Source: Gammaproteobacteria bacterium (GTDB taxonomy: Bacteria > Pseudomonadota > Gammaproteobacteria > Steroidobacterales > Steroidobacteraceae). Taken from it: a DNA stretch of 64,000 nucleotides. Below, one piece after another: positions 32,378 to 57,868 of the stretch. The position numbers were made by a program, and so were the translations under genes. The notes beneath the pieces were generated by a model. It was not told the origin of the DNA, made no database searches, and worked only from the letters and a program-made list of their open reading frames with translations. How positions within the stretch are numbered: the stretch's first letter is position 1; every line of letters begins with the position of its first letter. The stretch lies in the NCBI GenBank assembly GCA_025355165.1, contig JANYAD010000030.1, positions 23,854 through 87,853 of the forward strand, written 5' to 3'.

Positions 32378-32658
32378 TGGAAAATGAAGAAGCTGCGCAG
32401 CCGACCGGCGAACCGGAGGCCGGCGAACCGGTGCAGGTGCCATACACCGAGTTATCGCCAGACCTGTTGCACGCCGTCATCGAGTCCTTCGTGCTGCGCG
32501 AAGGCACCGATTACGGCGTGCAGGAACTCCCTTTAGATGCGAAAGTGGCCCGAGTCATGGGGCAGCTCCGGCGTCAAGAGATCAAGATCATTTATGACCC
32601 TAATTCCGACAGCGTGACCATCATACCTGGGCACTCCGATGGTGCGCCGAAGCGCTAA
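32374..32658 (+). CDS. YheU family protein
   Basis: [54 protein letters not shown]. Confidence 0.88.
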
Positions 32659-33484: not shown

Positions 33485-33494
33485 AATCGCCAGG

Positions 33495-34460: not shown

Positions 34461-34579
34461 GGACTTTTCGCGGTGTCGCACGGCAGGAGTATGGGCCAAC
34501 AAGCCCGCGATTTCTCAGCGAGCTGGTGTATGCTTCCAAAAATTTGTTCCGCGCCAAAAAATTGAGGGGTACAACAATT

Positions 34580-35692: not shown

Positions 35693-36336
35693 CGTTCAAG
35701 ACGTGGTTGCTTTTCCTGGTAATGGAGACCGCATTGTCTCTGTCCCCGGGACCGGCCGTGTTTTACGTCGTCTCGCAAGGCGCACGGGGCGGATTGCGTC
35801 GCACCCTGCCGGCGGCGGCGGGAATTCTTACCGCCAACGCAGCGTACTTCGCGCTATCGGCCACCAGCCTAGGAGCGCTCATTGCGGCGAGCGCGAGGTT
35901 CTTCGTCATCGCCAAATGGGTCGGGGCCGCCTACCTTATTGTTTTGGGCGTAAAGGCGCTGCTCGCTGCGAACTCCATGCATGCTGTTGCGCTCGAAAAG
36001 GAGCAGGCGCAAAAGCAGCGCCGTCTGGGCGTGTATGTGGGGGCCCTTACCTTGCAATTCGCGAATCCCAAGGCGCTGCTGTTTTTTCTGGCGTTACTGC
36101 CGCAATTCATCAACCTCGCAGCACCGGTGGTACCGCAGATGTTGATCTTGGCAGCGACATCTATGGTCCCGGAATTTTTTATCTTGGCAGGGTACGGGTG
36201 GCTGGCGCATCGCGCGCTGCGCGCAACGGTTCGATTCGGCATGCCGGGCAACATGAATCGTTGGCTTGCGCGGGTGGAGGGCGTCGGGCTATTGGGCTGT
36301 GCGACTCTGGTTTTGAATTTTAATCGCGGCAACTAG
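35689..36336 (+). CDS. LysE/RhtB family transporter
   Basis: ETALSLSPGPAVFYVVSQGARGGLRRTLPAAAGI; multiple TM segments. Confidence 0.85.
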   Translation: MTFKTWLLFLVMETALSLSPGPAVFYVVSQGARGGLRRTLPAAAGILTANAAYFALSATSLGALIAASARFFVIAKWVGAAYLIVLGVKALLAANSMHAVALEKEQAQKQRRLGVYVGALTLQFANPKALLFFLALLPQFINLAAPVVPQMLILAATSMVPEFFILAGYGWLAHRALRATVRFGMPGNMNRWLARVEGVGLLGCATLVLNFNRGN

Positions 36337-36356
36337 CCGTCTAAACATTCGATAAG

Positions 36357-38339: not shown

Positions 38340-38356
38340 TTGGCACGTGGCTTGCA
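38340..38356 (+). promoter_or_regulatory. Putative sigma-54 promoter of fliK
   Basis: TTGGCACGTGGCTTGCA, consensus with GG-N10-GC spacing. Confidence 0.75.
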
Positions 38357-38367
38357 ATTTCTGGGTG

Positions 38368-39855
38368 ATGAATGCCATACCGCCAGTTTCCCAATCGCAG
38401 CGCAGCAATGGTGAGCTGAATTTCAATGTGTCAGAGCCTCCCCATATGCCGCTTCCCCCGGCTAGCGGTCAGGATTTTGCGGCCGCCTTGAACCAAGCTC
38501 ATGCTGAGCCTGCGCGCAAGAACATCATCAAAGACCAACATCGAAGCGAGCCCAGCGGCGGGCATTTGCCGCAGCTCGGCAATTCGACGCCGCCTGTTGC
38601 GCCGGCTGCAACCACAGGCGTAGCCGCTGCGCGCCATAGCCTAAATGACCGGGACGACCGGGCGGCGGTCGCGGTGGCCGCCACCCCGATAGGTACCCCC
38701 GCCGCATCAGCAGCCGGTGCGGGCGCACCCGCCCCCACGTCGGTCGGCGCGGCACCCCCAAGCAACGCTTGCACGCCAGAGAGCAATATTGCTGCGACTC
38801 AGCCTCCCCTGAAAGCGCTGGCAGCGGACGATCAGGCAATGCTGAGCGGCGTGCCCGTGCTCCAAAGTTCACCCCCAAAGCCTGTTCCCGTGCCGATCAC
38901 TTCGGCGCCTTCTGCCGCAGGTGCCCGCACACCCGCCATACCGGCCGCAGGTATCGGCCCCCGGCTTATCGCGGCAGCCATTGCAACTGCAGCCACCCCG
39001 GCCTCGGATTCCTCGAACGGCACGCTGAACGGCGCAGTGGCTCCCAACGCCGATAACGCGGCGCAAGCCGTGATGGCGGAAACCCACGCACAAGGCAGCA
39101 CTTTGCCGCTGACGAATTCGCCGGACCTCGCGGTTTCCGATGCGGGGACGGCGCTGGCGCGTGAGGTCGCACCGGCTCCCGGAGTGCCGATTGCACCGGG
39201 ATTCGCCGCCGGATCCCCAGATACTGTAGCGGGTCCAGCGTCCGCGGCAGCGGCGGCTGCAACGGCGGCATCTATCGGACAAGTGGTCGGTGCCGCCGGT
39301 AGTCAGGCCGGCGGTGACAAGCATTCCCGCGGTGGCGGCCCGGATTCTTTTCAGCCCGGCGCCTCGAGTGACGGCGCCGGCGCCGCGCAACTGCTGAGCT
39401 CCGCCAATCCGGGCGCTGCCGATGCATCGCCCACCCCTGCGTTCAAAGTGTCGGCCGGCGTTGACAGCGCCGAATTTGGGCAGGGCGTTGCTAACCACGT
39501 CGGCATCATGATGGACGGCAATTTGAGCAGCGCGAAATTGCAGGTCAATCCACCGGCCCTCGGACCCATCGAGGTGCGGATCGCGCTGCAGGCGGGACAT
39601 GCGCAAGTCTGGTTTACGAGCCACAGCGCGATCACCCGCGATGCGCTCGAGTCAAGCGCGCCAAAACTTCGTGAAATGCTGGGCGCGCAGGGTTTCGCAG
39701 AGGTGAGCGTCGACATTTCTCAGCGCTCTTTCCAGGAACGCTCGCCCCAGCCAAGAAGTTATGAGGGGCCGGCGGCAATTACGCCTGACTCCATCGCTGC
39801 GGTGGGCAGCGCATCGGCGCATACCGCAACCGGGTTGCTCGACGCCTATGCGTGA
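38368..39855 (+). CDS. fliK: Flagellar hook-length control protein FliK
   Basis: Ala/Pro-rich N-terminus and C-terminal Flg_hook domain (LQVNPPALGPIEVRIALQAGHAQVWFTSHSAITRDALESSAPKLREMLGAQGF); true start may be downstream (GTG 38428). Confidence 0.88.
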   Translation: MNAIPPVSQSQRSNGELNFNVSEPPHMPLPPASGQDFAAALNQAHAEPARKNIIKDQHRSEPSGGHLPQLGNSTPPVAPAATTGVAAARHSLNDRDDRAAVAVAATPIGTPAASAAGAGAPAPTSVGAAPPSNACTPESNIAATQPPLKALAADDQAMLSGVPVLQSSPPKPVPVPITSAPSAAGARTPAIPAAGIGPRLIAAAIATAATPASDSSNGTLNGAVAPNADNAAQAVMAETHAQGSTLPLTNSPDLAVSDAGTALAREVAPAPGVPIAPGFAAGSPDTVAGPASAAAAAATAASIGQVVGAAGSQAGGDKHSRGGGPDSFQPGASSDGAGAAQLLSSANPGAADASPTPAFKVSAGVDSAEFGQGVANHVGIMMDGNLSSAKLQVNPPALGPIEVRIALQAGHAQVWFTSHSAITRDALESSAPKLREMLGAQGFAEVSVDISQRSFQERSPQPRSYEGPAAITPDSIAAVGSASAHTATGLLDAYA

Positions 39856-39861
39856 AGCTGT

Positions 39862-40593
39862 TTAGATCATCCCGCCATTGATGGAAATAATTTGGCCCGT
39901 AATGTAGGCCGCCTGACGAGATGCGAGGAACGCCACTAGACTGGCGACCTCATCGGGGGAGCCGGGGCGCTTCATCGGCACCATGTTGCCGATGGCCGTC
40001 TGGTCAAAGGCGCACTTGGTCATCTCAGTTGAAATGATGCCGGGTGCAACCGCATTGACAGTGATTCCGCGGCTCGCCACTTCCAAGCTTAATGCTTTGG
40101 TAGCCGCGTTCAGCGCGCCCTTCGCCGCAGCGTAATTGACCTGTCCCCGGTTTCCGAGAAGCGCGGTCACTGACGAGATACTGATTACGCGGCCCCACCG
40201 CGTTCGGATCATGGGCAGCATGAGCGGTTGCGTAACGTTGTAGAAGCCGTTGATCGAGACATCAATGACCCGATGCCATTGCTGTGGGCTCATTCCAGGA
40301 AAAACTGCATCGTCGTGAATCCCGGCATTGTTGACCAACACCTGAATCGCCCCTTCCTCGATGATTGTGTCCAGCGCGCTTCGCGTCGAGCCCGCATCGG
40401 TCAGGTCGAATTGTATGGCGCTTGCGCTGCCTCCGGCCGCGACGATACCCGCGACGACTGATTGAGCGGCTTCCATGCCGCGATGTGCATGCACGTAGAC
40501 GAAATGCCCTTGGGCACTCAAGGCGCGACATATGGCGCTGCCTATGCCGCCACTTCCGCCGGTGACCAAGGCGCGCGTAGGGGGTTCGATCAT
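39862..40593 (-). CDS. FabG-type 3-ketoacyl-ACP reductase of the aryl polyene-type cluster (ApeQ-like)
   Basis: VTGGSGGIGSAICRALSAQGHFVYVHAHR...YAAAKGALNAATKALSLEVASRGITVNAVAPGII. Confidence 0.9.
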   Translation of the reverse strand: MIEPPTRALVTGGSGGIGSAICRALSAQGHFVYVHAHRGMEAAQSVVAGIVAAGGSASAIQFDLTDAGSTRSALDTIIEEGAIQVLVNNAGIHDDAVFPGMSPQQWHRVIDVSINGFYNVTQPLMLPMIRTRWGRVISISSVTALLGNRGQVNYAAAKGALNAATKALSLEVASRGITVNAVAPGIISTEMTKCAFDQTAIGNMVPMKRPGSPDEVASLVAFLASRQAAYITGQIISINGGMI

Positions 40594-41030
40594 GATCTTG
40601 ACCTTCTCGCGGCATCGAGCACCACCGTGGCGCGGCCGCTGAGCAATGTTCTCCCTGGATCGCTTAATTCGAACTCATATAACGCCGCGAGATCATCGCC
40701 GGCAAGATGGGTGACCTCGCATATCAAGTCAGACTCGATATCATCCAAACGCAAGACGAACAGGCGCATATCGCGCACGCCCGCCAAGAGGCCGCCCTGC
40801 GAGAGGCCTGCGCCGCTCAAAGCACCATGCAGGGCCATGGCTTGCGCGGCGTATTCCACTCCGCAGGCAATACCTAAACGTTGGTGCGAACGCAGCGGAT
40901 TGTCGGGCGCGCGATGCGTACTTGTGCGGCAACGGACGCCCTTCGCATTCCATTCGATCACTTCATCCAAGAGGCACATGCGGCCGCGATGAGGGATGCG
41001 CGCCTCGATCCATTCGCGATTCAGGAGCAT
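40590..41030 (-). CDS. 3-hydroxyacyl-ACP dehydratase-like (ApeP-like hotdog)
   Basis: IPHRGRMCLLDEVIEWNAKGVRCRTSTH...GVEYAAQAMALHGALSG. Confidence 0.82.
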   Translation of the reverse strand: MLLNREWIEARIPHRGRMCLLDEVIEWNAKGVRCRTSTHRAPDNPLRSHQRLGIACGVEYAAQAMALHGALSGAGLSQGGLLAGVRDMRLFVLRLDDIESDLICEVTHLAGDDLAALYEFELSDPGRTLLSGRATVVLDAARRSRS

Positions 41031-41818
41031 GGCTGCACTTGCACGGATGCGCGCGACACATCAAGGTAATCGAGAACCGCATACCCCGAGGAACCCGTTG
41101 CGAGCAAGCGAAGCAGCGGCAAGGATCGCGCCGCAGGAATCGCAGTCCTCAAGGCTTCTAGGCCTTTATCCGGTATGAGGTCTGCATTCTCGTCGGTGAG
41201 GACGAGATCAATCCTCGCCAGCGAAGTTCGACCCCTTTCGGGCGTCAGAACCATCGCGACGCCAAACGCATCCGGTATGGGACGTTTGGCGTGCAGCGGC
41301 GGCGGATATTCCGTGTCATACGCGACCAGCAACACGGCCTGTTGATCGACCGCAGTTTGAGCGAGTGCGTCCAGCAAGCCCGCGACGAAGCTGGCGTCGA
41401 AGGCGCATAGGACATTCGCCTCGGCCATGGAGCCGGTGGAAATGCTCCAATAGCCCGCTGCCACGTTGTGCACGGAATTCGAAAATCGCGTCGGCGAGAC
41501 CTCGCGGGAAGACAGCGCCAAAGCTTGGCAGATTTCGTGGCAGATATGGCCGTCGCTCCCCGAGGAGCAGAATACGCTCGGTATGTGCGCGGCGTCCGCT
41601 TCGGCATTGGCGGCGGCTTCATGCGCAATGGCCAACGCCAACTTCACGACGCGTCCGGTCCGCCGTCGTTCCGCGGCCGGCAGCGTTACGGGGCTGGGCA
41701 ATTGGGTGGGCGCAGATTGGTATGGCTGCCGGCCGGCCAGTACCGACGCGGCCTGTGGCCAGTTGTCAAATCCCGGACCGAGGATGCCGATCCCGCCTAT
41801 GTATGCGGACAATCTCAT
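41021..41818 (-). CDS. Beta-ketoacyl synthase chain-length-factor-like protein (ApeC-like)
   Basis: MRLSAYIGGIGILGPGFDNWPQA...FSNSVHNVAAGYWSISTGSMAEANVLCAFDASFVAGLLDAL. Confidence 0.8.
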   Translation of the reverse strand: MRLSAYIGGIGILGPGFDNWPQAASVLAGRQPYQSAPTQLPSPVTLPAAERRRTGRVVKLALAIAHEAAANAEADAAHIPSVFCSSGSDGHICHEICQALALSSREVSPTRFSNSVHNVAAGYWSISTGSMAEANVLCAFDASFVAGLLDALAQTAVDQQAVLLVAYDTEYPPPLHAKRPIPDAFGVAMVLTPERGRTSLARIDLVLTDENADLIPDKGLEALRTAIPAARSLPLLRLLATGSSGYAVLDYLDVSRASVQVQPCS

Positions 41819-43017
41819 CCGGCGCGGCCGAATATCAAGCTGCAATTCGTGCCGCCGAATCCGAAGGAATTGCTGAGAACGCGCCTCAGGGGTACTCGAC
41901 GATTGTCTCGAATGTAATGGGCCATCAGACTCGGGTCGATCCGAGTGCTCGGTACGCCCCCCGGCATCAAACCGTTCTGCACCGCGAGTGCACTGATCAC
42001 CGCCTCCAACGCGCCCGCTGCGCCCAAGGTATGGCCTGTTGCCCCTTTGGTGGAACTGCAGGGCGTGGTCGGTCCGAACAGGCTGGTCACTGCCTGACTT
42101 TCCGACCGGTCATTGCTGGGTGTCCCCGTACCGTGCAAGTTTATATAGTCGATGTCACCAGGCTCCATCGAGCCTGAGTTCAAGGCCGCTTGCATGGCGC
42201 GTTTCGCACCTAGCCCTTCCGGGTGCGGAGCAGACATGTGGTAGGCGTCACTGGATTCACCCACGCCCAAAAGTAGCACGGAGTCGCCATCGAGGTTTTC
42301 CGTCACCCGTTCCAGCACGGCGAACGCGGCGGCTTCACCGACCGAAATGCCGTCGCGCGCAGCATCGAAGGGTCGGCACGGGGAGGGCGAAGAGAGCTGT
42401 AGCGAATGAAATCCATATAGGGTGGTGAGACACAGCGAGTCGGTACCGCCCACCAAAGCTGCATCGATGACACCTGCTTCGATCATGCGGCGGGCCGCGC
42501 CGAATACTTTGGCGCTGGATGCGCATGCCGACGACACCGCTACCGCCGGCCCCTCCAAGCCGCAGCGCCGCCGTAAGTAGTCGGCGACGGAAAACGAGTT
42601 ATGCGTGGTGCCATATTCGAAACTTGCCGGCAGCGCGCCGCTGACCGGATCGCGCGCCCGGTAAGCGAGCTCGGTTTGCAAGATGCCTGCCGTGCTAGTG
42701 CCGATAAACACACCGACACGACGCCGGCCCCAGCGTGCGGCGGCGCGTTGCACAGTTTCGAAGAAACCATCCTGCTGCAACGCGAGCTCGGCCAACCGGT
42801 TGTTGCGACAATTGAATATCTGCAATGCCTTTGGCAGCCGCTGAGAATCGACCCCCGGCACTTCGCCGATGTGAGTGTCTAGATCCACGCTCTCGAAGGT
42901 GCAGCGCGTCAGTCCGCTGCGTTGCTCGACGAGACTCTGCAATGTGGGCGCGATTCCTCGGCCGATGCAACTGGTCGCCGTAAATTCCGCCAGCAGCAGC
43001 GGCCGCATAGTTCTCAT
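41815..43017 (-). CDS. Beta-ketoacyl-ACP synthase (ApeO-like)
   Basis: SSACASSAKVFGAARRMIEAG (active-site Cys), NLHGTGTPSND and KGATGHTLGAAGALEA (His residues). Confidence 0.9.
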   Translation of the reverse strand: MRTMRPLLLAEFTATSCIGRGIAPTLQSLVEQRSGLTRCTFESVDLDTHIGEVPGVDSQRLPKALQIFNCRNNRLAELALQQDGFFETVQRAAARWGRRRVGVFIGTSTAGILQTELAYRARDPVSGALPASFEYGTTHNSFSVADYLRRRCGLEGPAVAVSSACASSAKVFGAARRMIEAGVIDAALVGGTDSLCLTTLYGFHSLQLSSPSPCRPFDAARDGISVGEAAAFAVLERVTENLDGDSVLLLGVGESSDAYHMSAPHPEGLGAKRAMQAALNSGSMEPGDIDYINLHGTGTPSNDRSESQAVTSLFGPTTPCSSTKGATGHTLGAAGALEAVISALAVQNGLMPGGVPSTRIDPSLMAHYIRDNRRVPLRRVLSNSFGFGGTNCSLIFGRAG

Positions 43018-43832
43018 GGCAATGCCGAGCGCAGCGTGACGGGACTCAATCCCTTAGCATTCATCGCCTCCAGCAAGCGCGGCAACACTTCCACGATCAC
43101 CGGTCTTCCTGCGCGGCTGCGCGCCGCATGGCCATCGTGCAACAACAGGATGTCTCCCGGGCGAAGCGGATTGGCCAAGCGGTTGAATACCGCATCAGGA
43201 TCGGAATTCACGGTGTCGAAGCCGCGGCGCGTCCAACTGGCAAGGCGCAATTTGAGCCGCACCAAGATCGGATCGAGAAAGGGATTGCGCAGACCGGCCG
43301 GTGCCCGAAAGAAAATGGGCATGCTCGCGGTGACGCGATGGATGCTCTCTTGCGCTCGAGAAATTTCGCCGCGCATCCCGCTCGGGCCGAGCAACGAAAA
43401 ATTATGCCGGTGCCGGTGACTGTGATTTTCTATCGTATGGCCGCGCCTGACAATTTCTTGCGCCAAATCCGGGTAACGGAGCACGCGCTCGCCCACGCAA
43501 AAGAAGGTTGCGCTTGCCCTATACCGCTCCAGTTGCGCCAAGACATCGGGCGTGACGCTGGGCTCGGGTCCATCATCGATGGTAAGCGCTACTCCCATCG
43601 CAGTCCTGCCGGTCGCAGGCAGCCGGGTCCAATTCGGGCCGAGCAGCTGGCTGCGCGGCCAAAGTCCAGCCGCGGCCAACGCAACATGGTTCGCAAGCAC
43701 CGCGCTGAGCGCCCATGGCCAGATATGCGGCCGCTCGATGAGCGAAGCGACCGCCCCTAAATGCAAAGCGCCGCTCCCATACAACAACGGCGAGGGCGTC
43801 CACACGCCGGATAAACTATCTTTTTGCTTCAT
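43014..43832 (-). CDS. CE4 polysaccharide deacetylase-family protein
   Basis: TIDDGPEPSVTPDVLAQLERYRASATFFCVGERV...HTIENHSHRHRH. Confidence 0.87.
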   Translation of the reverse strand: MKQKDSLSGVWTPSPLLYGSGALHLGAVASLIERPHIWPWALSAVLANHVALAAAGLWPRSQLLGPNWTRLPATGRTAMGVALTIDDGPEPSVTPDVLAQLERYRASATFFCVGERVLRYPDLAQEIVRRGHTIENHSHRHRHNFSLLGPSGMRGEISRAQESIHRVTASMPIFFRAPAGLRNPFLDPILVRLKLRLASWTRRGFDTVNSDPDAVFNRLANPLRPGDILLLHDGHAARSRAGRPVIVEVLPRLLEAMNAKGLSPVTLRSALP

Positions 43833-44467
43833 TTGAAACGCGAATCCAGAAAATTCTCCCACAGCTTCGACCAGGTGCGCCATTCATGTCCGCCTTCAAT
43901 GACATCGATCGCATCAGGTGGCAGCGCTTTTGCGAGCAAGCTATGCGCCGAGGAAAATCGATCATCGCGCCCATAACCCAAGAATATCGACGGCAAGAGC
44001 GCCCGTGTTTTGAGGTGGCGCCATAGTCGGCGCTCCGAGTCCGCTTCTGCAAGCTCGCCGGGCTCCCATGCCGCCAAGCCGCCGGCCGAAGCAATTTCCG
44101 CGATCAACATGCGATTCCCGAGATAGGGTGCCACCAGAAACAGGCCTGCCAACCCATCCGGATAAGAACTGGCATAGTGAAGCGCCAACGATCCGCCCAA
44201 CGAGATTCCTGCCAGCCAAACCGACGCGCCGGAGGCGAGTGCCGGCAATACGATGTCGAAACGCAGGCGCTGCAACGCTCCCCGGTCAGCCAGGTGCTGC
44301 ATTTCCAGATCGATGAACGTTAGGTCTAAGGGAGTGTAACGGTCAATGACGGCCTGCGCGAAGCCCGCCTGCAAGAAGTCGCGGGCGCATTGATAAGCTC
44401 CGGGCAGCCATATCATTTGCGTCGTTGCCGCGGCGCCGGCTTTGGCCGCGCTAAGCAGACTGCGCAT
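43829..44467 (-). CDS. Alpha/beta hydrolase
   Basis: VWLAGISLGGSLALHYASSYPDGLAGLFLVAPYLG nucleophile elbow; internal Met start at 44467 overlaps the MMPL gene end. Confidence 0.75.
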   Translation of the reverse strand: MRSLLSAAKAGAAATTQMIWLPGAYQCARDFLQAGFAQAVIDRYTPLDLTFIDLEMQHLADRGALQRLRFDIVLPALASGASVWLAGISLGGSLALHYASSYPDGLAGLFLVAPYLGNRMLIAEIASAGGLAAWEPGELAEADSERRLWRHLKTRALLPSIFLGYGRDDRFSSAHSLLAKALPPDAIDVIEGGHEWRTWSKLWENFLDSRFK

Positions 44468-46847
44468 CGGGACTTGCGGCGCCAAAGGCGATGGCGGCAA
44501 ACAGCAGCGCGAGAAACGCGCCCGGGGCCACCGTGGTTCCCAGTGCAACCAGAACCGGGACTTGCGAGAAGGATAGCAGCCCGAAACCAATCACGCAGCT
44601 CGCGTTGGCGATGAGCAGCGATGCGAGCGTGAGCGACTCGCTGGCCGGTTCGCGCTGGTTCGCTTGACGGTCAAAAAACAACGCATAGTTCGATCCGACG
44701 GCGACGATCAGCAGCATGCCCACCAAGTGCAGAATGCTCAACTGCACGCCACTGATAGCCAATGCCGCCGCCACGGTAAGCACCGACAGCACCAAAGGCG
44801 CTAGCACTCGGGCGACCCGCAGCGGCGAGCGCAGCGCGGCCAGCAACAAGACGCTGAGCGCCGTGAATCCCGCTAGCGAAAAACGAATGGCCTCCGATAA
44901 GTAGCTGTCATAAAGAGCGTCCGACTCCTGCTTGAGGTCGAGTACGCGCGCTTCGGGCAAATCTGCCTTGTGCAGTGTGGCCACCACCCGGGCCACGTCG
45001 ATGTCGTGCCCGACGGCCGCGGCACGCAACGGCAGCAACGCATTCCATTGCTCCCTCTGATGGAGAATCAAGGCATCGAATCCCGGGTTTAACGATGTAC
45101 CCGACAAGTCTCGCGACGTGAGCAATGCCATGTGGCGCGTCGTCTCGACATCTTCTAAAAAGGGCTGCAAGCGATCCAGGCGCAGCGGCAAACCCTGGAC
45201 CGCCTGTTGCAAATTGACGCGCAACTGCGCCGGACCCGGAAGGCTGCTGCGACGCATCTCCTGGGCCGCCGTACTGGGCAGGTAAAGAGTCGGATTTTCA
45301 TAGCCCCCGATCACCTTATCGTCTACCAACGATTGCAGCGAATGCGCGGCGCGCTCAGCGCCGCGCAATATTGATTCCATGTCGGCTCCGGACACGATGA
45401 CCAAATCGCGAACGTCTGCGGCGCCTAGATCTGCGCGCAGCTTAGCATCGTAATTCTGCTCTTCGATCGATATCGGGCTCAGCGCGGAAAGCTCGCGATT
45501 CCAAAGCGTACTCTTATGCTGATACAGCACGGCAAGCGCGATCATCGCCAACGCGCTGCCTGAAAGCATCAGGCCGCCGCGGCCGATGCGGTGGCATTTA
45601 CGCAGCAGCCGCGCAACCCCGGCACCGAATCGGCTGACATCGTGGATGACAAACCCCGACGGGAGCAAAGCCGGCAGCACATAACGAGTGACCAGGCCGG
45701 CGGCAATCAGACCGCTGATGGAATACAGCCCCAGCTGCTTCAGACCGGGAAATCCCGACGGCAATAGCGAAGCGAAGCCGCAAACGGATGTCAGCATGCC
45801 TAGTCGAATGGTCGGCCACCAACGCTGGCGCCACGAGCGAGCCGCTTCATCGGAAGGTGCCCTGCGCGACTGAACGAAAAAATAGATGGAGTAATCGACC
45901 GATTCACCAATCAGCGTGATGCCAAAGCCCAAAGTGATGCCGTGAACGACCCCAAAACTTAAGGCAACGGCCGCGACGCCAATCAGTGCGCCGCTGGCGA
46001 CCGGCAGCAGCCCCAAGCCCAGTGCCGTCAGGGAACGATAGACCGCAAGCAGCAGCGTCACCACCAGGATACCGCTGAGGATGGATAGGCGAATCGTGGC
46101 CTTTTCAATTTTGGCGCGCGCTTGCATCGCAAATACGCCGGGTCCGCTTAAGTGCAATTGCAGATCATCGGCCGTCCCGTTTTGCGATTTCCCCGCCGCT
46201 GCGGCAAAGGCGGCGCGAATCGCATCGACTGCTCTGCTTTGCGCGTCGCTGTCCGAGCCAATGGCCGCGGTTTGCGCCACTGCCAAGGCACGAGTTCCGT
46301 CGGCGGACACCCAAACTCCGTCGCGGCTTTCCGGCGACGCGGAACGGGTCAGTTGGTCAAGGATATTGAGCAACTCGCCGGTCGGGTCGCGCGGCAATAG
46401 CGACTTGAACAGCACCCCCGCGGGCGATGCCAAGCTCTCGATCGTGTCTTGAATCGCGGCGTGCAAGCCGGCCGCCGTGAAGCGCTCCGCACTAACCGAC
46501 TCGCTGAGAAGATAGCGGTGCTGAAACAGAAACTCCCGGTCTCTTTGCGCCGCGATAAATTCGCCGTTGCTGACACTGGAAAATTGCGGATCCTGGCGCA
46601 GACGGTTCGCCATGGCGATAGATACCCGAGCACGTTCCGCCGGCTCTCCATGCTCGACGGCGATCAGGATCAGCCGTGAAGCGGGTCCATCGCGCAGCTG
46701 GTCCACCAGCAACTGTTGTGTGGGAGTGGGATGCGCCGGCAAGAAGGCCGATAAATCCGTGATGTAATGCGCCCGCGCCACGACGATCGCGGCAAGCCCG
46801 ATGCACAGGACCCAGACGATGATTACGCGCGCCCGCCTCGAGGTCAT
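44451..46847 (-). CDS. MMPL/RND-superfamily exporter (ApeM-like)
   Basis: 798 aa with two TM blocks, including GITLGFGITLIGESVDYSIYFFVQ. Confidence 0.88.
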   Translation of the reverse strand: MTSRRARVIIVWVLCIGLAAIVVARAHYITDLSAFLPAHPTPTQQLLVDQLRDGPASRLILIAVEHGEPAERARVSIAMANRLRQDPQFSSVSNGEFIAAQRDREFLFQHRYLLSESVSAERFTAAGLHAAIQDTIESLASPAGVLFKSLLPRDPTGELLNILDQLTRSASPESRDGVWVSADGTRALAVAQTAAIGSDSDAQSRAVDAIRAAFAAAAGKSQNGTADDLQLHLSGPGVFAMQARAKIEKATIRLSILSGILVVTLLLAVYRSLTALGLGLLPVASGALIGVAAVALSFGVVHGITLGFGITLIGESVDYSIYFFVQSRRAPSDEAARSWRQRWWPTIRLGMLTSVCGFASLLPSGFPGLKQLGLYSISGLIAAGLVTRYVLPALLPSGFVIHDVSRFGAGVARLLRKCHRIGRGGLMLSGSALAMIALAVLYQHKSTLWNRELSALSPISIEEQNYDAKLRADLGAADVRDLVIVSGADMESILRGAERAAHSLQSLVDDKVIGGYENPTLYLPSTAAQEMRRSSLPGPAQLRVNLQQAVQGLPLRLDRLQPFLEDVETTRHMALLTSRDLSGTSLNPGFDALILHQREQWNALLPLRAAAVGHDIDVARVVATLHKADLPEARVLDLKQESDALYDSYLSEAIRFSLAGFTALSVLLLAALRSPLRVARVLAPLVLSVLTVAAALAISGVQLSILHLVGMLLIVAVGSNYALFFDRQANQREPASESLTLASLLIANASCVIGFGLLSFSQVPVLVALGTTVAPGAFLALLFAAIAFGAASPDAQSA

Positions 46848-47449
46848 GGCAGAGCAGGGCGCAGTGTCATCAGCGAACGATCACCATCGGGTTGGCGGAT
46901 TTCGACTTTCAACAACTGGTCGCGAATACCATCGATGCGTACCTGGGTCACCGAGTTCTTGACCTTGGAGTCAAGCGGCAGCAGCGTGAGGGTCCAGCGC
47001 GCAATATTACCGCTGAATTCCAAACGGAATAATTTCTCCAGCGCGCTTCGATCGCCTGCCAAAGTGGCGCGAATACTTTCTACAAAAGGCAGCACCTGCG
47101 GATAAGCATGCAAATCCAAGATGCGGCGGCTGTGGGCGCGCTCCACCGTCAAGGACCCGCCACTTAAGATCAATGTTTCAGCGCGCGGTTTGAGCGTGCG
47201 TTTTTCGAGCCGGTCAGTTGCGTCGTACCGCAATTCGCCGGAGGACTCGATGGGATGATTCAGGACGTGCAGAAATTGCTGCTCGACGAATTCGACCCGG
47301 CCATGTTGCCGCATCGCGAGCAAGCCCATGAGCTGGTCGAGATCATTGAAAGAAGGCGTTGTGGTTATGCGTGGCGCGGGAGGCGCGGCGCCGGCGGCGC
47401 CCGCGCCTGCCAGGCCGACCATCATTACCAGCAAGAGCGTACGCGGCAT
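46844..47449 (-). CDS. LolA-like outer-membrane lipoprotein carrier protein (ApeL-like)
   Basis: Signal peptide; SFNDLDQLMGLLAMRQHGRVEFVEQQFLHVLNHPIESSGELRYDATDRLEKRTLKP. Confidence 0.78.
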   Translation of the reverse strand: MPRTLLLVMMVGLAGAGAAGAAPPAPRITTTPSFNDLDQLMGLLAMRQHGRVEFVEQQFLHVLNHPIESSGELRYDATDRLEKRTLKPRAETLILSGGSLTVERAHSRRILDLHAYPQVLPFVESIRATLAGDRSALEKLFRLEFSGNIARWTLTLLPLDSKVKNSVTQVRIDGIRDQLLKVEIRQPDGDRSLMTLRPALP

Positions 47450-48378
47450 TAGTTACTCCGATTTTCCGCAGGTCGGTGCCAGAAATCGAAAAAGTTGAAC
47501 CAATTGTAGGGGTCGGTGCGGCAGTAAGACTCGAGCACCGCGGCATAACGCTGCAAGGCGGCGCGCACCGCGAGATCGCGGCTTCCCACCGCCATGGCGG
47601 AAAAGTCCGCCACCGGTTCGAAAACGACGTGGTAGTTATTCTTGCCCCGATAGAGCCCCGCCATGAAGAAGACGGGGCAGCGTAGGATGGCGGCGGCGCG
47701 CATCGGCCCGGTCGGCAAAAGGGCCTGCTTTCCTAGAAAACTGACCGCCTGGGTGGGTTCCGCGCCCAAGGTGCGATCAGCGAGAACACCGACGCAGCCG
47801 CCGCGGTCGAGCCGTTCGGCGATGTTGATCATGGCATCAATTTGGCCAAGTGCGACGATATCCGGAACGGTGTGCGGATTGATGGCCGCGAGGATGGCGC
47901 TGATCTTGCGCGCATTCTCCTCGTACATCGCCATTGACACTCGCAGCCCATCTTGGCGCCGACCAAGAGAATGCATGACCGCAAAGCTGCCCATATGGGC
48001 GCCCAACAGCAGCGCACCCCGGCCCTTCAGGACCTGAGCCAGCACCATGGCCTCTCCTTGCAATGAAACGTTGAATTTCTCGAACTGCTCGTTCATGAGA
48101 AAGACACGGTCGTGAATGGTGGTAGCGAAGCTCAAAATCTGCAGGAAGCGGTCACGGGCAGTGGGTTTCCTTCTCAACGCGAGCCGCAAGTAACAGCGCG
48201 AGTGGCGCCGGGCGCCGGGAGCGAACAAAAAGAAATAAAAGGCGATGCCGTAAAGAATACTGCGGCTCAGGCTTCGACCGAAGCGGATCGACAGGAATGC
48301 CATAAGCTTGAGCAACCACAGGCTGCCGCGCTCGCGATGTCTGACCCACTCGGCCGCTTTTGCTTGATTAACGCTCAT
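47449..48378 (-). CDS. LpxL/HtrB-type acyltransferase
   Basis: WLLKLMAFLSIRFGRSLSRSILYGIAFYFFLF...GALLLGAHMGSFAVMHSLG. Confidence 0.85.
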   Translation of the reverse strand: MSVNQAKAAEWVRHRERGSLWLLKLMAFLSIRFGRSLSRSILYGIAFYFFLFAPGARRHSRCYLRLALRRKPTARDRFLQILSFATTIHDRVFLMNEQFEKFNVSLQGEAMVLAQVLKGRGALLLGAHMGSFAVMHSLGRRQDGLRVSMAMYEENARKISAILAAINPHTVPDIVALGQIDAMINIAERLDRGGCVGVLADRTLGAEPTQAVSFLGKQALLPTGPMRAAAILRCPVFFMAGLYRGKNNYHVVFEPVADFSAMAVGSRDLAVRAALQRYAAVLESYCRTDPYNWFNFFDFWHRPAENRSN

Positions 48379-48664
48379 GCAGAGAGCCGCTTGCCACTTT
48401 TCGATTCTCAACTCGAATCGTGAAGTGAATCAAACCCGCGGCAGTAGCCTCGTGTTCCAGAAGGAGGGTGTCGCGCGGCCGAACCGCGTCGAAAAACTTC
48501 ACAGACCCAATGTGCCAACCCTTCAGATCAATTCCTCGATCAAGTGCAATGGCGTTGAGCATCTGGTCCAGCAAGACGGCGCCTGGCATTATCGGAAAAG
48601 CGGGGAAATGCCCGTCGAATGCAGGATGATCCGCGTCGATATCGACCGAGCTATGCATCCTCAT
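48368..48664 (-). CDS. 3-hydroxyacyl-ACP dehydratase FabZ/FabA-like (ApeI-like)
   Basis: HPAFDGHFPAFPIMPGAVLLDQML hotdog signature. Confidence 0.85.
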   Translation of the reverse strand: MRMHSSVDIDADHPAFDGHFPAFPIMPGAVLLDQMLNAIALDRGIDLKGWHIGSVKFFDAVRPRDTLLLEHEATAAGLIHFTIRVENRKVASGSLHER

Positions 48665-50025
48665 GGCGAGTCGTCCGCCCGCAATCGGCTTTCGGCAAAA
48701 CCCTGCAGTGCGGCTTGCGGCAGTTTGCCGGTCGCATTGCGCGGCAGTTCCTCGACCATGAGCAAAGGCCGCGGCAGAAACGCCGAGTCTATCTTCCGCC
48801 TCAGGTGTTCGATGAGAGTCGCAACGCTCACGCCGGGCGCGACCACTACGGCGCCTAAGCGATCGACGCCGGTAGATTCATTTGGACCTTCGCGCAGGAA
48901 AAACGCACCGTCCCTAACTCCGGGAATGGCGTTGAGCTGGGCATTCAAATAGCCGAAAGAGCTGCGCTTGCCGGCCACGTTTACCAGGTCTGCCATGCGA
49001 CCATGCAGCAAGAACTCCTCCTCGCCTGTGATCTCGACTACATCGCACATGGGCGTCAGCTGCTCAATGTGGCCGCCTTGCGCATAGGCTTGATCTTTCG
49101 ACATACTGAGTCGAACGCCGGGCCAAAGCCGCCATGCGAGAGTGTCAGCAGTGCGGCGCATGGCAATTTGGCCCGTCTCCGTCGAGCCGTAAATTTCCAG
49201 TAGTGGCGTGCGGTATTTTTTCTCCACTTCGCGCGCCAGCGCCTGGTTCAACGGTGCGGTGGCACAGATCACCAGATCTATCGGCGGGAACTGCACTTCG
49301 GAACCCAGCAGCGTGCGCAGGTGAATGGGTGTGGTGACGAGAATTCGAGGCCGCGGAACCGCCTCGACGGCAGCCGCGACGTCGGCGGGATAAAAAGGCC
49401 GCTCGGCGCAGAAGGCATTGCCGCCGAGGAGCGCGAGCAGCACCGACGATTCAAACCCGTACATGTGCTGCCCGGGCACGGTGGCAACTATCGCATGGCT
49501 CTGGCCGTCCACGATACCCAAGCGCGGCGCGCCGGTTTGAATACTGCGCGCCAGCAGACCCCAGGTTTTTTGAAACGGCACGGGTACGCCGGTCGATCCC
49601 GACGTGAACACGATGGCGGCGAGCTGACCGGCTGCGATGGCGGGAATTCTCAAGCTCTCCTGCGGTCCCGAAGGAGCGCATACGGGCAGCTGCGCAGGGA
49701 AATTAAACTGCGGCAAGTCAATGTCGCAGTGCGCATCGTCGGTGAGGCAGAAGGTGTCGGGCGCGAATGCAGAGAGCTGCGCAATGACTTGGGGTGTATG
49801 AGCCGAGGGAAGGAGGCTCACCCGCTGCGACAGAAGGCAGGACGCCAGTCCGACAGTGAAGTGATACCGATCGGCACAAACATTCAAAACATGCTTGGAT
49901 TCGGGCAGCCGCTGTGCAAGGTGATGAGCGTCCGATAAGAATTGTCGGACGGTTATCGGGACACCCGCGCGGTAGGCCACCGTCGCGGTCGGTAAGGTGT
50001 GTGAAAGAAGCGCGATGGGGTCCAT
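48661..50025 (-). CDS. AMP-dependent acyl-CoA/ACP ligase (ApeH-like)
   Basis: AAIVFTSGSTGVPVPFQKTWG, EIYGSTETGQIAMRR, LPRNATGKLPQAALQ. Confidence 0.88.
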   Translation of the reverse strand: MDPIALLSHTLPTATVAYRAGVPITVRQFLSDAHHLAQRLPESKHVLNVCADRYHFTVGLASCLLSQRVSLLPSAHTPQVIAQLSAFAPDTFCLTDDAHCDIDLPQFNFPAQLPVCAPSGPQESLRIPAIAAGQLAAIVFTSGSTGVPVPFQKTWGLLARSIQTGAPRLGIVDGQSHAIVATVPGQHMYGFESSVLLALLGGNAFCAERPFYPADVAAAVEAVPRPRILVTTPIHLRTLLGSEVQFPPIDLVICATAPLNQALAREVEKKYRTPLLEIYGSTETGQIAMRRTADTLAWRLWPGVRLSMSKDQAYAQGGHIEQLTPMCDVVEITGEEEFLLHGRMADLVNVAGKRSSFGYLNAQLNAIPGVRDGAFFLREGPNESTGVDRLGAVVVAPGVSVATLIEHLRRKIDSAFLPRPLLMVEELPRNATGKLPQAALQGFAESRLRADDSP

Positions 50026-50029
50026 GAGA

Positions 50030-50662
50030 TCAACGCGGATTGGTGAAATATACGCGCACAGTAGCCATCAAGCTGCTGCGCTTCACCTCGGGTAGAACGC
50101 GGCGGCGCACGGCGTACTCGAGCGCGAACATGAGCGCTAGCAGGGGCAGCGACAAAAAGTTGACGTATAGCGACCAAACCCGCAGTGGGGCAAGCTCAAA
50201 CAAGAGAAACATTAGCGCCATATTGGTCAGAAAAAAAATCGCCCATGCAGCAGTGACTTTGCGTGTGTAGCCAAGCTCCTGGGCCGACAGAGGTCCGTGC
50301 ACCTGGTCGGCCAGGCGGGTGCACAACGGCACCCGTCCCTTGATCAGTGAGCGTCCGAAGCTCCACGCCATGATGACGTTGAAAGCGCACTCCTGGATCA
50401 AATATACAACGGGGAAATTCGGCGATACGAGAGGCCAGAACTCGTGCAGCACCCAGGCAGCCGCAGCTGCTGCTAGAAGAGCCCACAGCGCTCCGCTCCA
50501 ACGCCAAATCAGAATCAGACCGAGCGTGAGCATGGGCGCGAAGGATAAGGCAGTTCCCAAATTTCGCGATTTGGGATTCGCATTGCTGTAGTGCGACAAA
50601 ACCGAATAAGCGATGAAGCATACGACGAACGCAGCAAGCTGCAGTCTACGCCCCGGAACCAT
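50030..50662 (-). CDS. Multi-TM membrane protein (ApeG/COG4648-like)
   Basis: Several TM helices; located between AMP-ligase and ACP as in aryl polyene clusters. Confidence 0.7.
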   Translation of the reverse strand: MVPGRRLQLAAFVVCFIAYSVLSHYSNANPKSRNLGTALSFAPMLTLGLILIWRWSGALWALLAAAAAAWVLHEFWPLVSPNFPVVYLIQECAFNVIMAWSFGRSLIKGRVPLCTRLADQVHGPLSAQELGYTRKVTAAWAIFFLTNMALMFLLFELAPLRVWSLYVNFLSLPLLALMFALEYAVRRRVLPEVKRSSLMATVRVYFTNPR

Positions 50663-50664
50663 GA

Positions 50665-50982
50665 CTACTTGGTTCTATGCGCCGCAATGTATTCTGCTAG
50701 GTGCCTCAAAGACCGGAAGATGTGCTGATTCTCTTGACTATCAGCCCGCAAGTGGATGCCGTACTGCTTGGAGACGATGAGCGCCACTTCCAGGATGTCA
50801 ATGGAATCCAAACCCAGCCCCTCACCATATAAGGGAGCGTCTGGGTCGATATCTTGAGGTTGCACCTCAAGGTTGAGTGCTTTTACGAACAGCCCGGCAA
50901 GCTCCCGCTGAAGACCGACATCGGTCAGCGGCGCCGGCTGTTGCATGAGCGACGCTTTGTCGGACATAGGCTTAAGCTTCAA
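50665..50982 (-). CDS. Acyl carrier protein (ApeE/ApeF-like)
   Basis: APLYGEGLGLDSIDILEVALIVSKQYGIHL phosphopantetheine motif (LDSID). Confidence 0.9.
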   Translation of the reverse strand: MKLKPMSDKASLMQQPAPLTDVGLQRELAGLFVKALNLEVQPQDIDPDAPLYGEGLGLDSIDILEVALIVSKQYGIHLRADSQENQHIFRSLRHLAEYIAAHRTK

Positions 50983-51087
50983 TTGGAGTTCTACGAAGCC
51001 GCATTATATAGGTGCGAGCCGACGCGGCAACTCGGGTGACAAAGCTGGTGGCCAAAGCGTTGCGCCGCGACCACAAATTGACCGCGG

Positions 51088-51846
51088 CTACTTGCGCACG
51101 CGGCGCGCGGCCAGCAGCGGCAGCCTTAGAACAAAGCCCCAAAATAGACGGAAATGCATCCACGTGAGCAGAGCATTGTCGCGCCAGTAATTGAAGTGGG
51201 AGACTCCTCCCTCGTCGGGCTTAAAATAACGCACCGGCGCCGGCAAATTGATCGGTCGGACGCCCTGCCAGCACAAACGCACCACCGCCTCGACATCGAA
51301 ATCGAAACGCCGCATCCAACGTTGACGCCCCATTATGGCCACGAGGGGGTCAATTGGATAAACGCGAAAGCCAAAAAGCGAGTCCCCGATACCTTCCCAT
51401 AGGGTCTCAAGGTTGGCCCACCAGTTGGAAATCTTCCGGCCGCCCACCCGTAAGGCGGGGGCGCTGCTGTCGAATTGCGGGGACCCTATGACCATGGAAG
51501 CGGGAGATGCAGCAGAGATCTGCATGAAGTAACCGATACTTTGGGCGGGATGTTGCCCATCCGAGTCCATAGTGAGCGCATGGGTATAGCCTAAGGATTG
51601 CGCCTCGCGCATGCCAAACAGCACCGCGGCGCCCTTGCCCCTATTTTTCGGCATCACTAGCACGCGCAGATTGGAATCGCGGGCCGCAATTTGCGCTAAG
51701 CGCTGCGCCGATTCGTCGGTGCTGCCGTCGATGACCACCCAAACGGGGGCCCATTCCTCCAGCGCGGCTCCCACGGTGGAAAATACTTTGGAGCCCGGGT
51801 TGTAGCTCGGAATGAGCACAAGATGGGTGCTTGAGGGAATGCTCAT
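51088..51846 (-). CDS. Family 2 glycosyltransferase
   Basis: HLVLIPSYNPGSKVFSTVGAALEEWAPVWVVIDGSTDESAQRL...MDSDGQHPAQSI. Confidence 0.88.
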   Translation of the reverse strand: MSIPSSTHLVLIPSYNPGSKVFSTVGAALEEWAPVWVVIDGSTDESAQRLAQIAARDSNLRVLVMPKNRGKGAAVLFGMREAQSLGYTHALTMDSDGQHPAQSIGYFMQISAASPASMVIGSPQFDSSAPALRVGGRKISNWWANLETLWEGIGDSLFGFRVYPIDPLVAIMGRQRWMRRFDFDVEAVVRLCWQGVRPINLPAPVRYFKPDEGGVSHFNYWRDNALLTWMHFRLFWGFVLRLPLLAARRVRK

Positions 51847-52607
51847 TCGTGTTTGAGCCAACGAGCCTGCAGAGCGCCCTCGAGCACTTGGCGGTAATAT
51901 CGATCGAGCTCCGCCGTAAAGGCCGCGACGTCTGAAGGCGGGTCGAAGCGCCTGCCGAGCCTGACCCGGTATGTGATGGGCAGGTCAGGGCGCTGGAACA
52001 AGGGCCAACCCTTGCTCAAAAACGCCGAGTCGGTCTCGATGATCAGGGTCTGCACCGGCACTTTGGCATGTTTGGCAATGAGACCGACACTGCCTACCAG
52101 GGGATTGATGGGTGCCCGTGTGGTGCGGGTTCCCTCAGGAAACAGCAGCAGCACGCCGCCCGCGCTCAAATGCGCCACGGATTCTTTCACCATGTGCCGC
52201 GAGGAATCATTTCTCACATAGCGCGCGAGCCGGGAGCCGGCGCCGAGAAATATATTTTTCATGAGTTGCGATTTCATTACGCAAACCAAATTCGGATGGC
52301 GGGTCAGAATCAGTAGCGCATCAATCAGTGCCGGATGGTTGGGGGCTAATATCAGCGGCGGGCCGCCCCGTAGGGCATCGATTGCGCGCAGATCCAAACG
52401 GTAGGTTCCTGTGATCGACAAGGACCAAGAGTAGAGGCGAAAGCCTGCCATGATGCCGCGCCGTCCGACCGCCGCGCCAAGGCGCGCCGGCAGCATGAAA
52501 TAGAGCGGCAAGGCAAAAAGCGACCAGGTCAGGCAAATAAGACCCAGCAGAGTGAGAGAGCTGTAAAGTGCGAAATATTCGTAGGTTGTTTTGATAAAAC
52601 GCGGCAT
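51843..52607 (-). CDS. PlsC-like 1-acyl-glycerol-3-phosphate acyltransferase (ApeD-like)
   Basis: LILAPNHPALIDALLIL and LLLFPEGTRTTRAPI; internal Met start at 52607 preferred over 52991. Confidence 0.87.
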   Translation of the reverse strand: MPRFIKTTYEYFALYSSLTLLGLICLTWSLFALPLYFMLPARLGAAVGRRGIMAGFRLYSWSLSITGTYRLDLRAIDALRGGPPLILAPNHPALIDALLILTRHPNLVCVMKSQLMKNIFLGAGSRLARYVRNDSSRHMVKESVAHLSAGGVLLLFPEGTRTTRAPINPLVGSVGLIAKHAKVPVQTLIIETDSAFLSKGWPLFQRPDLPITYRVRLGRRFDPPSDVAAFTAELDRYYRQVLEGALQARWLKHE

Positions 52608-52612
52608 CGGCG

Positions 52613-53485
52613 TCAGTTTGGCAAGTCTACGACCCGCGAGGATGTCGCGATCATATGAGCGAAACCAAATCCCGCTGTCCAGTAACGGTTGGTTTGCACC
52701 AACGGGCTGGCGGCAAACGCGGCCCCCGCCAGCGTGTCGTAGCGCAGGTATGCTCCCACCCAGAGTTTGGGGTAGCGCTTCGACAGAGCCGCCAGGGTCT
52801 GCGTCCCGGCATACCCGCCCACGGCTGCAAACTCCGGCCGCGCGGCCGTTGCGAATTGGGGGGCAACTGAATAAAAATAAGCGTGGTAGCGATGGTCTGC
52901 AAACAGGGGTCCAGCCAACAACCCCAGATTCCATCCCGGCAGCCCGAATGGATCCCTGAGATCCACGTTGACTCGGGGGCTGAAGGTCCATCCGATCACG
53001 TGCGGCGCGCTTTCAACGGTGGCCGCGGCGCGCAGCGGCATGCGCAAATCCAATTTTAACCTGCGATCGTCGCTGCGAAATAAGTGAAAGTCCAAAGACG
53101 GGCCCACCTCCACCGTGGATTTCAGGTTTGGCATGCCGCTACGTTCGCGGTCGTTGCGAACGGGTGTCGTGAGGTTGAAACTCACATTGATTTCGAGCCA
53201 ATTTTGGTTGAACAAGGTACCGCGCACGCCCTCTCGATCGGCCTTGAGGAATTTGCCGTTATAGCGGATATAGGGCACGGGCAATGGGTATGCATGGGTG
53301 GTGTTGGAACCGCGATAGTCCTCGAAGGCTACCGCGCCTGCGCCTAAGCCGAATTCCCACAGGGGCTCCTGTTTCGCCTCGGCAGGCCAAAACCCGCTGA
53401 TCGCCAGCAGCGATGCGGCGAGCGCGCAAGATTGACCGCTGGTCACGCGCCGGCGTGCAACGCCATCCTTGTCAAGCTCGGGCAT
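52613..53485 (-). CDS. MipA/OmpV family outer-membrane protein
   Basis: EFGLGAGAVAFEDYRGSNTTHAYPLPVPYIRYNGKFLKADREGVRGTLF...LGAYLRYDTLAGAAFAASPLVQTNRYWTAGFGFAHMI. Confidence 0.88.
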   Translation of the reverse strand: MPELDKDGVARRRVTSGQSCALAASLLAISGFWPAEAKQEPLWEFGLGAGAVAFEDYRGSNTTHAYPLPVPYIRYNGKFLKADREGVRGTLFNQNWLEINVSFNLTTPVRNDRERSGMPNLKSTVEVGPSLDFHLFRSDDRRLKLDLRMPLRAAATVESAPHVIGWTFSPRVNVDLRDPFGLPGWNLGLLAGPLFADHRYHAYFYSVAPQFATAARPEFAAVGGYAGTQTLAALSKRYPKLWVGAYLRYDTLAGAAFAASPLVQTNRYWTAGFGFAHMIATSSRVVDLPN

Positions 53486-53556: not shown

Positions 53557-54240
53557 ATGCATATCTTGATTGTCGAAGATGATGAAGTTGCGCGCGATTA
53601 CCTGGCTAAGGCGCTGCGGGAGGCGGGCCATACGGTGGATACGGCAGGAAACGGTCTCGAAGGCCTGCACATGGCTTCCTCGGTTGCCGTTGATTTGGCG
53701 ATCGTAGATCGTATGCTGCCGAAGATGGATGGACTCGCGTTGGTGCAATCGTTGCGTGCCACGGGGCGCAAGATACCGGTGCTGATTTTAAGTGCCCTGG
53801 GCGATGTGGACGACCGCATAACGGGCTTGCGAGCCGGCGGCGATGATTACTTGACGAAGCCATACCATATGGCCGAACTGCTGGCGCGCATCGATGCGCT
53901 GGCCCGCCGGGGCGATGCTGGCAACGCTGAGACCAGCACCAAACTGAAGCTGGCTGACTTGGAACTCGACCGCATGACCCGCCGAGTCATGCGCAACGGC
54001 AAGAAAATAGAGCTAACGGCCCGCGAGTTTCAATTGTTGGAGTTCATGATGCGCCATAGCGGCCAAGTCGTGACGCGCACTATGCTCCTCGAAGGCGTAT
54101 GGGACTATCATTTCGACCCTCAAACCAACGTGATCGACGTGCATATCAGCCGTTTGCGTCAGGCGATCGACAAGGATTTCGACAAGCCTTTGCTGCATAC
54201 CGTGCGCGGTGCCGGGTACAGCCTGCGCGAAGACGAATAG
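53557..54240 (+). CDS. OmpR-family response regulator
   Basis: MHILIVEDDEVARDYLAKALREAGHTVDTAGNG plus winged-helix C-terminus (NVIDVHISRLRQAIDKDF). Confidence 0.94.
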   Translation: MHILIVEDDEVARDYLAKALREAGHTVDTAGNGLEGLHMASSVAVDLAIVDRMLPKMDGLALVQSLRATGRKIPVLILSALGDVDDRITGLRAGGDDYLTKPYHMAELLARIDALARRGDAGNAETSTKLKLADLELDRMTRRVMRNGKKIELTAREFQLLEFMMRHSGQVVTRTMLLEGVWDYHFDPQTNVIDVHISRLRQAIDKDFDKPLLHTVRGAGYSLREDE

Positions 54241-54265
54241 TGCGCGCATAGGAGCCGGTCCGGAG

Positions 54266-55633
54266 ATGGGGCCCGATCAACGCTTTCTCGGTATTCTTGA
54301 TACATCACCGTTCCGCATCGCGATCGTCTATTCACTCGTGTTCGCCATCGGCGCGGCCACACTCATTTATGCAGTGGACTTCGCAGTCTCGCGGGTGGTC
54401 GACGGCAGCACCGATAATCTGATCGAAGCCGAAGTGCAGGGTTTGCGCGAGCAAATGCTGGTGCTCTCGCGTAGCGACTTCATCGAGCTGATTGAACAGC
54501 GCTCGCAGGATCAGGACGTGCGGGGTGCGGTGTATTTGATGGTAGATCCGCAGCTGCGGCCAGTCGCGGGCAATGTGCCCGCCTGGCCCAAAATGGGCTC
54601 GAAACAGAAATGGTTCATGTTTAAGGTCTCTGTGCCATTCGGCGACGAGACTCGCGAACACGAAATGCGGGCGCGCTACTTTGCCCTGCCAGGCGGCTAT
54701 CAAATGCTCGTGGGGCACGACGTGCAGGAGCGCCAGGACGTCAAGAGCCTCATGATGCGTGGCTTGATCGCAGCCGTGATACTCACCTTGCTATTGGGCT
54801 TGGGCGGTGGCTTTTGGATGGGGCGGCGCATTCTCGCCCAGGCGGGGGCGATTTCGGCGGTGGCTACGCAAATTATGAACGGTGATTTGTCGCAGCGCCT
54901 TCCAGTGCGCAAAGCCGACGATGAAATCAACACATTGGCCCGGGAGATCAACGGCATGCTCGATAAGATCGAGCAGCTTACCCTGGGCATGCGCACCGTT
55001 CTTGACAGCGCAGCGCATGATTTGCGTACGCCATTGAACCGCTTGCAAGCCAGCGCCGAGAGCGCCATGACATCATTGCTGCCCGGTTCGCCAGAGCGGC
55101 GCGTTCTCGAAAGAGTGAATACGGAAGTCGATCGCATGCGCAGCACGTTGGATGCACTGCTGCGCATTGCGCTCGCCGAGACGGGCACGGTTGCACGGGA
55201 GCCGGTGGATCTGTCGGAACTTGTCGCAAGCGTGGTCGAATTGTACGCGCCGGTGAGCGAGGAGCGCGGCATCGCTTTGGAAAGCACCGTGGCGCCGGGG
55301 GCACAAGTGCTGGGCAATCGGCAGCTTCTGGCGCAGGCGCTCGCCAACCTGCTCGACAACGCCATTAAGTTCACGCCCGATGGCGGGCGAATTCGCGTGT
55401 TGCTGGATGGATCGGGCCGCGCCCCGCAGGTCATCGTCGAGGACAATGGGCCTGGCATACCCGCTGATAAACGCGAGATCGTTCTCGGCCGCCGTGTGCG
55501 GCTGGATGAAGCGCGCAAGTTTCCGGGATCAGGCTTGGGTCTATCCCTGGTAGCGGCGGTGACGAAATTGCATGGCGCGCGTCTCGTGCTCGATGACGCT
55601 GCTCCCGGCTTAAGAGTTTCCTTGAAGTTTTAA
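54266..55633 (+). CDS. Membrane sensor histidine kinase with HAMP domain
   Basis: SAAHDLRTPLNRLQASAESAM H-box, NLLDNAIKFTPDGGRI N-box; start chosen just after the regulator stop. Confidence 0.9.
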   Translation: MGPDQRFLGILDTSPFRIAIVYSLVFAIGAATLIYAVDFAVSRVVDGSTDNLIEAEVQGLREQMLVLSRSDFIELIEQRSQDQDVRGAVYLMVDPQLRPVAGNVPAWPKMGSKQKWFMFKVSVPFGDETREHEMRARYFALPGGYQMLVGHDVQERQDVKSLMMRGLIAAVILTLLLGLGGGFWMGRRILAQAGAISAVATQIMNGDLSQRLPVRKADDEINTLAREINGMLDKIEQLTLGMRTVLDSAAHDLRTPLNRLQASAESAMTSLLPGSPERRVLERVNTEVDRMRSTLDALLRIALAETGTVAREPVDLSELVASVVELYAPVSEERGIALESTVAPGAQVLGNRQLLAQALANLLDNAIKFTPDGGRIRVLLDGSGRAPQVIVEDNGPGIPADKREIVLGRRVRLDEARKFPGSGLGLSLVAAVTKLHGARLVLDDAAPGLRVSLKF

Positions 55634-57808: not shown

Positions 57809-57825
57809 ATGGCATAGAACTTGCT
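57809..57825 (+). promoter_or_regulatory. Putative sigma-54 promoter of the fliL operon
   Basis: ATGGCATAGAACTTGCT, GG-N10-GC. Confidence 0.72.
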
Positions 57826-57868
57826 CGATTACAGATGCGGCGCTTGCCCGCGTCTTGGAATCGAAACT

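Follow-up and report, generated by a model that had tools for sequence, protein, structure and literature searches.

A xanthomonadin-type aryl polyene operon at a stable address within the flagellar gene cluster of a soil genus

The flagellar gene cluster in the 64-kb stretch of DNA analysed here (the window) houses a compact operon of 16 minus-strand genes (39862-53485) that, judged from its sequence, genuinely belongs to the aryl polyene (APE) type. Very probably, the operon directs the synthesis and export of a xanthomonadin-type APE lipid, entered once between fliK and a two-component system (TCS), has been passed on vertically since then, and is independent of the flagellum. Its gene content, homology, synteny and history can be read directly from the genomes that we compared. 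The predicted product is a xanthomonadin-like aryl polyene, a yellow antioxidant membrane pigment. The novelty lies in the location and not in the system; a literature search for arylpolyene together with fliK returned nothing relevant.

Open reading frame (ORF) calls bear out the layout described in the original prediction, namely about 16 packed minus-strand genes at 39862-53485 with the named order, orientation and boundaries, and domain searches recovered all of the functions that had been given to individual genes. At the left boundary, fliK (38347-39855, plus strand, Flg_hook domain) converges on the operon, and its stop at 39855 is indeed 6 bp from the stop of the operon's last gene. 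Reading away from fliK, and all on the minus strand, the genes encode an ApeQ-type ketoreductase (KR; 39862-40593), an ApeP-type hotdog dehydratase (40590-41030), an ApeC-type chain length factor (CLF; 41021-41845), an ApeO-type ketosynthase (KS; 41815-43017), a CE4 polysaccharide deacetylase (43014-43883), an alpha/beta hydrolase (43829-44467), an ApeM-type MMPL exporter (44451-46847), an ApeL-type LolA-like carrier (46844-47449), an LpxL-type acyltransferase (47449-48411), an ApeI-type FabA/Z-like dehydratase (48368-48664), an ApeH-type AMP ligase for the aryl starter (48661-50025), an ApeG-like membrane protein (50030-50662), an ApeE-type acyl carrier protein (ACP; 50665-50982), a GT2 glycosyltransferase (51088-51861), an ApeD-type PlsC acyltransferase (51843-52607) and, as the operon's first gene, a MipA/OmpV outer-membrane protein (52613-53485; MipA, E 9e-39). 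The ApeG-like gene and the MipA/OmpV gene, the latter being the sixteenth, are additions to the earlier gene list. When read from their first starts, the PlsC frame (382 aa) and the hydrolase frame (253 aa, open to 44590) overlap their neighbours, and their likely starts are 52607 and 44467, respectively. Flagellar genes resume with fliL (57821-58426, plus strand) about 4.3 kb beyond 53485, in agreement with the predicted distance of about 4 kb. Domain searches of the intervening stretch identified an OmpR-type response regulator (RR) and a histidine kinase (HK), both divergent from the operon (53557-55633, plus strand), followed by an M13 peptidase (55663-57717, plus strand).

The fliJ-fliK interval (31922-38327) also contains non-flagellar genes, including an alpha/beta hydrolase, a LysE exporter and an S9 peptidase, so that the flagellar block has been broken into twice. 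This second block of cargo is found in some relatives only. An assignment of 34433-35692 as FliI was rejected, as the sequence is that of a hydrolase.

Thirteen operon genes match ape genes of Escherichia coli CFT073 in BLASTP. The KS (PRK09185) possesses the Cys-His-His motifs and is 41% identical to ApeO vs 32% to ApeR, the KR is 47% identical to ApeQ and matches FabG models, and the ACP, with its serine in a DSI motif, is 51% identical to ApeE and scores above the PRK09184 cut-off. The CLF (Ketoacyl-synt_2) matches ApeC. Domain searches combined with BLASTP likewise pair the MMPL exporter with ApeM, the AMP ligase with ApeH and the PlsC protein with ApeD, while BLASTP and profile searches identify the ApeG-like protein. 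The LolA-like carrier (LolA_3) and the FabA/Z-like dehydratase correspond to ApeL and ApeI by domain and profile matches, and the profile of the hotdog dehydratase, built from 76 relatives, matches only ApeP among the E. coli proteins (E 1.7e-6). The GT2 and LpxL-type genes align with the two halves of ApeJ (residues 9-241, at 37% identity, and 247-552, respectively). The best solved-structure matches of the KS (6qsp_A and 7f28_B) and the CLF (7f28_A and 6qsp_B) are partner chains of the same two complexes, which we take to be APE KS-CLF heterodimers. The operon thus combines the paired ApeO-type KS and ApeC-type CLF with an ACP, an aryl-activating AMP ligase, a KR, two dehydratases, the ApeGLM export proteins and lipid-attachment acyltransferases, in the gene order that is standard for beta- and gammaproteobacterial APE loci. 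We also considered the KS as a fatty-acid enzyme and rejected this assignment; it does not group with FabF.

Compared with the E. coli CFT073 apeA-R cluster, the operon shares counterparts of ApeC, D, E, G, H, I, J, L, M, O, P and Q but carries ApeJ as two genes, and it has CE4, hydrolase and MipA genes in addition. Searches of the window against the E. coli proteins found no separate counterpart of ApeR, ApeF, ApeK, ApeB, ApeA or the LolB-like ApeN. In particular, tblastn for ApeR and the second ACP (ApeF), which mark the E. coli/Xenorhabdus subtype, returned only the existing KS and ACP. The cluster therefore has the single KS and single ACP of the xanthomonadin subtype; only one other KS was detected in the genome at E<1e-30, a 33% match on a different contig. 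Domain searches revealed no methyltransferase among the operon genes.

A XanB2-type chorismatase, which by homology is the predicted supplier of 3-hydroxybenzoate and is expected for a xanthomonadin system, is encoded on a separate contig of this genome (C203), unlinked to the operon. It consists of a PF21168 domain and a RidA-like C-terminus, and its closest structures are FkbO and Hyg5. Together with the single KS and single ACP of the cluster, this unlinked chorismatase gene indicates that the operon is of the xanthomonadin type. Within the genus, the chorismatase was found in 16 of 19 genomes with APE and in one of four without (Fisher p 0.04, for genomes that are not independent of one another); it was found in none of 14 control genomes. 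It was not found in three APE-bearing genomes, two of which are 81-82% complete. Genes for DUF3443 and DUF2844 proteins adjoin the chorismatase in the window's genome (L137:10589-12348), and one relative (G017) has the chorismatase within a divergent APE operon (L115). Azoarcus is reported to rely on an enzyme of the XanB2 type for 3- and 4-hydroxybenzoate (PMC3949708).

The xanthomonadin-like cluster of Lysobacter, with one KS and one ACP, is a close parallel. The Lysobacter enzymogenes/Xanthomonas cluster shares with the window the adjacent CLF-like protein, the KR, two dehydratases, the exporter, the LolA-type carrier and a chorismate-derived starter (PMC3691225), whereas in the window's genome the chorismatase is unlinked and the cluster lies inside a flagellar locus. 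Betaproteobacterial loci (Herminiimonas, Polaromonas, Dechloromonas and Thiobacillus) share the core order ACP-apeG-AMP-DH-LpxL-LolA-MMPL-CE4-KS-CLF-DH-KR, and their KS proteins are 62-69% identical to that of the window. Unlike in the window, their GT2(-PlsC-MipA) genes usually sit at the far end of the locus and are encoded on the opposite strand, and the loci lack flagellar neighbours. Steroidobacter cummioxidans 35Y is reported to produce a brominated xanthomonadin and to have a 14-gene cluster (PMC5979037); the likeness is that of a xanthomonadin cluster in a named Steroidobacter.

Production of another type II polyketide or a fatty acid in place of an aryl polyene would be suggested by the CE4 deacetylase (Polysacc_deac_1) and the hydrolase (weak hydrolase matches), neither of which has a counterpart in the E. 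coli cluster. These genes do recur, in 74 and 31 of 80 related APE loci, respectively. The APE types of the KS-CLF pair, ACP, AMP ligase and exporter, the chorismatase in the genome and the Steroidobacter pigment all stand against another product, which we regard as very unlikely. The E. coli Ape orthologues, KS-CLF structure matches and genomic chorismatase instead lend strong support to the original assignment as an aryl polyene/xanthomonadin type II polyketide synthase.

It is possible to outline how such a pathway would operate. The chorismatase would supply 3-hydroxybenzoate, which the AMP ligase may load onto the ACP, and the conjugated chain would be built by the KS-CLF pair, the KR and the two dehydratases. 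PlsC, GT2, CE4 and the LpxL-type acyltransferase may join the chain to a predicted glycolipid anchor, and any part played by the hydrolase is conjectural. MMPL and LolA would then deliver the lipid to the outer membrane, with MipA as its possible receiver there.

The flagellar setting was compared across 23 genomes of the genus, all metagenome-assembled from soil and peat. The APE KS is present in 19 and FliP in 16; 12 genomes have both, seven have APE only, four have flagella only and none has neither. Eight genomes carry KS and FliM on one contig (G000, G010, G021, G008, G019, G011, G001 and G020), and all eight show the order flagellar genes-APE-RR-HK-fliL on that single contig. In seven of them fliK is next to the KR, and in G011 only fliI-fliJ were detected on that side; the fliK side of the junction is also visible on broken contigs of G014 and G018. 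The arrangement thus recurs within the genus, and the corresponding site in a sister genus is free of APE. There, G071 has fliK, 234 bp, RR-HK and fliL and carries its APE on a different contig, and G024 has fliK, a 325-aa ORF resembling threonine dehydratase, RR-HK and fliL. Among 42 sampled genomes of other genera of the family that have both KS and FliP, the two are on different contigs in 40, which in fragmented genomes is not proof of distance, although several of the contigs are very long. KS and FliP are 2 Mb apart in G031 and 18 kb apart in G030, where APE lies past the end of the flagellar block.

The source of the window is a metagenome-like draft assembly of 271 contigs, and the original prediction allowed that misassembly at about 39858 or 53500 could have created the junctions. 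Misassembly can be excluded almost with certainty because identical junctions recur in independent assemblies of other species, and the flagellar embedding is real. The idea that a mobile pigment island arrived recently at an insertion hotspot draws on the variable cargo of the fliJ-fliK and fliK-fliL intervals and on the APE operons of other origin in G017 (L115) and G007 (L112), which lie away from the fliK-TCS site. However, the 16 resident-type KS proteins of the genus form one clade (SH-aLRT 94) whose branching is congruent with the tree obtained for the adjacent TCS, with some support values in these trees being low. Identity to the window declines in step for KS and FliM (rho 0.95), which argues for a single old insertion followed by vertical descent. 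Related APE loci from outside the genus have no flagellar flank except for one weak flgC-like match (L063). A recent mobile island is thus highly improbable. Of the predicted hotspot, the variable interval contents stand, but the APE operon of the window is a long-established occupant that has descended vertically. The resident clade, its agreement with the TCS tree and the KS/FliM correlation together imply that the operon was already inserted between fliK and the TCS before most of the genus radiated; when it arrived, in an ancestor of the soil genus, the TCS would already have been at the site.

Subsequent losses affected both systems. APE has been lost in G013, which nests within the clade, and in G004, which retains fliK-MipA-RR-HK-M13-fliL without the remaining operon. 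In four flagellum-less genomes, namely the pairs G003 and G015, and G006 and G016 (L111, L132, L114 and L117), rimO now adjoins APE; in the window, rimO (15560-16909) lies among flagellar genes. Whole-genome searches of these four found no FliP or FliM, and no flagellar genes are left near APE. Flagella have been lost separately from APE, and repeatedly, within one soil genus. Between G006 and G016, the APE genes exhibit dN/dS of 0.13-0.30, which denotes purifying selection, although part of this divergence may predate flagellar loss.

Position could also reflect function, such that pigment and motility are jointly controlled by flagellar regulators or by the TCS located between APE and fliL, and the original prediction proposed a coupling of pigment or envelope state to motility. 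The operon's first gene diverges from the RR across only 71 bp, and the linkage to flagellar genes is kept in all eight informative genomes. Nevertheless, coupling cannot be a requirement, since each trait is found on its own and the TCS, present in 22 of 23 genomes whatever their APE or flagellar status, is older than the insertion. The operon remains under purifying selection in species without a flagellum, KS and FliP mostly occupy different contigs in other genera, and in G007 and G017 the TCS and APE occupy separate contigs. Alignment of the MipA-RR gap revealed a stretch conserved in five genomes that closes with a -10-like TAAGAT beside the RR start, and of which G000 and G010 keep little or nothing; beyond this RR promoter side, the gap showed no APE-specific conserved regulatory site. 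Consensus promoter scans found no promoters. The RR (88-96%) and HK (78-90%) are conserved far above neighbouring flagellar proteins. Functional coupling of this kind is unlikely; a regulatory link between pigment and motility is possible, with no positive support. As the operon persists in relatives without a flagellum, its address is stable and does not constitute evidence for a link between pigment and swimming.

In APE loci of several genera, among them Dechloromonas, Azonexus and Thiobacillus, MipA precedes GT2 on the same strand, and the roughly 800 bp between the two match a PlsC gene in length. This grouping occurs in nine of 37 APE loci with enough flank, all nine from distant proteobacteria (L044, L048, L049, L055, L062, L064, L068, L084 and L088), and the MipA-bearing loci of other genera lack flagellar neighbours. 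We infer that MipA is an APE-associated outer-membrane protein, a candidate pathway partner and possibly a receiver of the lipid. A combined reading, in which MipA is the missing receiver (MMPL to LolA to MipA) and the TCS ties expression of MipA and of the pigment operon to envelope state and perhaps to motility, is unlikely. Our literature search found no paper joining MipA and aryl polyene.

The recurrent MipA-PlsC-GT2 grouping offers a testable candidate for future work. The neighbourhood is a stable, vertically inherited genomic address, at which operon and flagellum would each do without the other. The locus shows a flagellar cluster eroding around a retained pigment operon, and it provides a clean example of genes that are physically linked and yet functionally independent.
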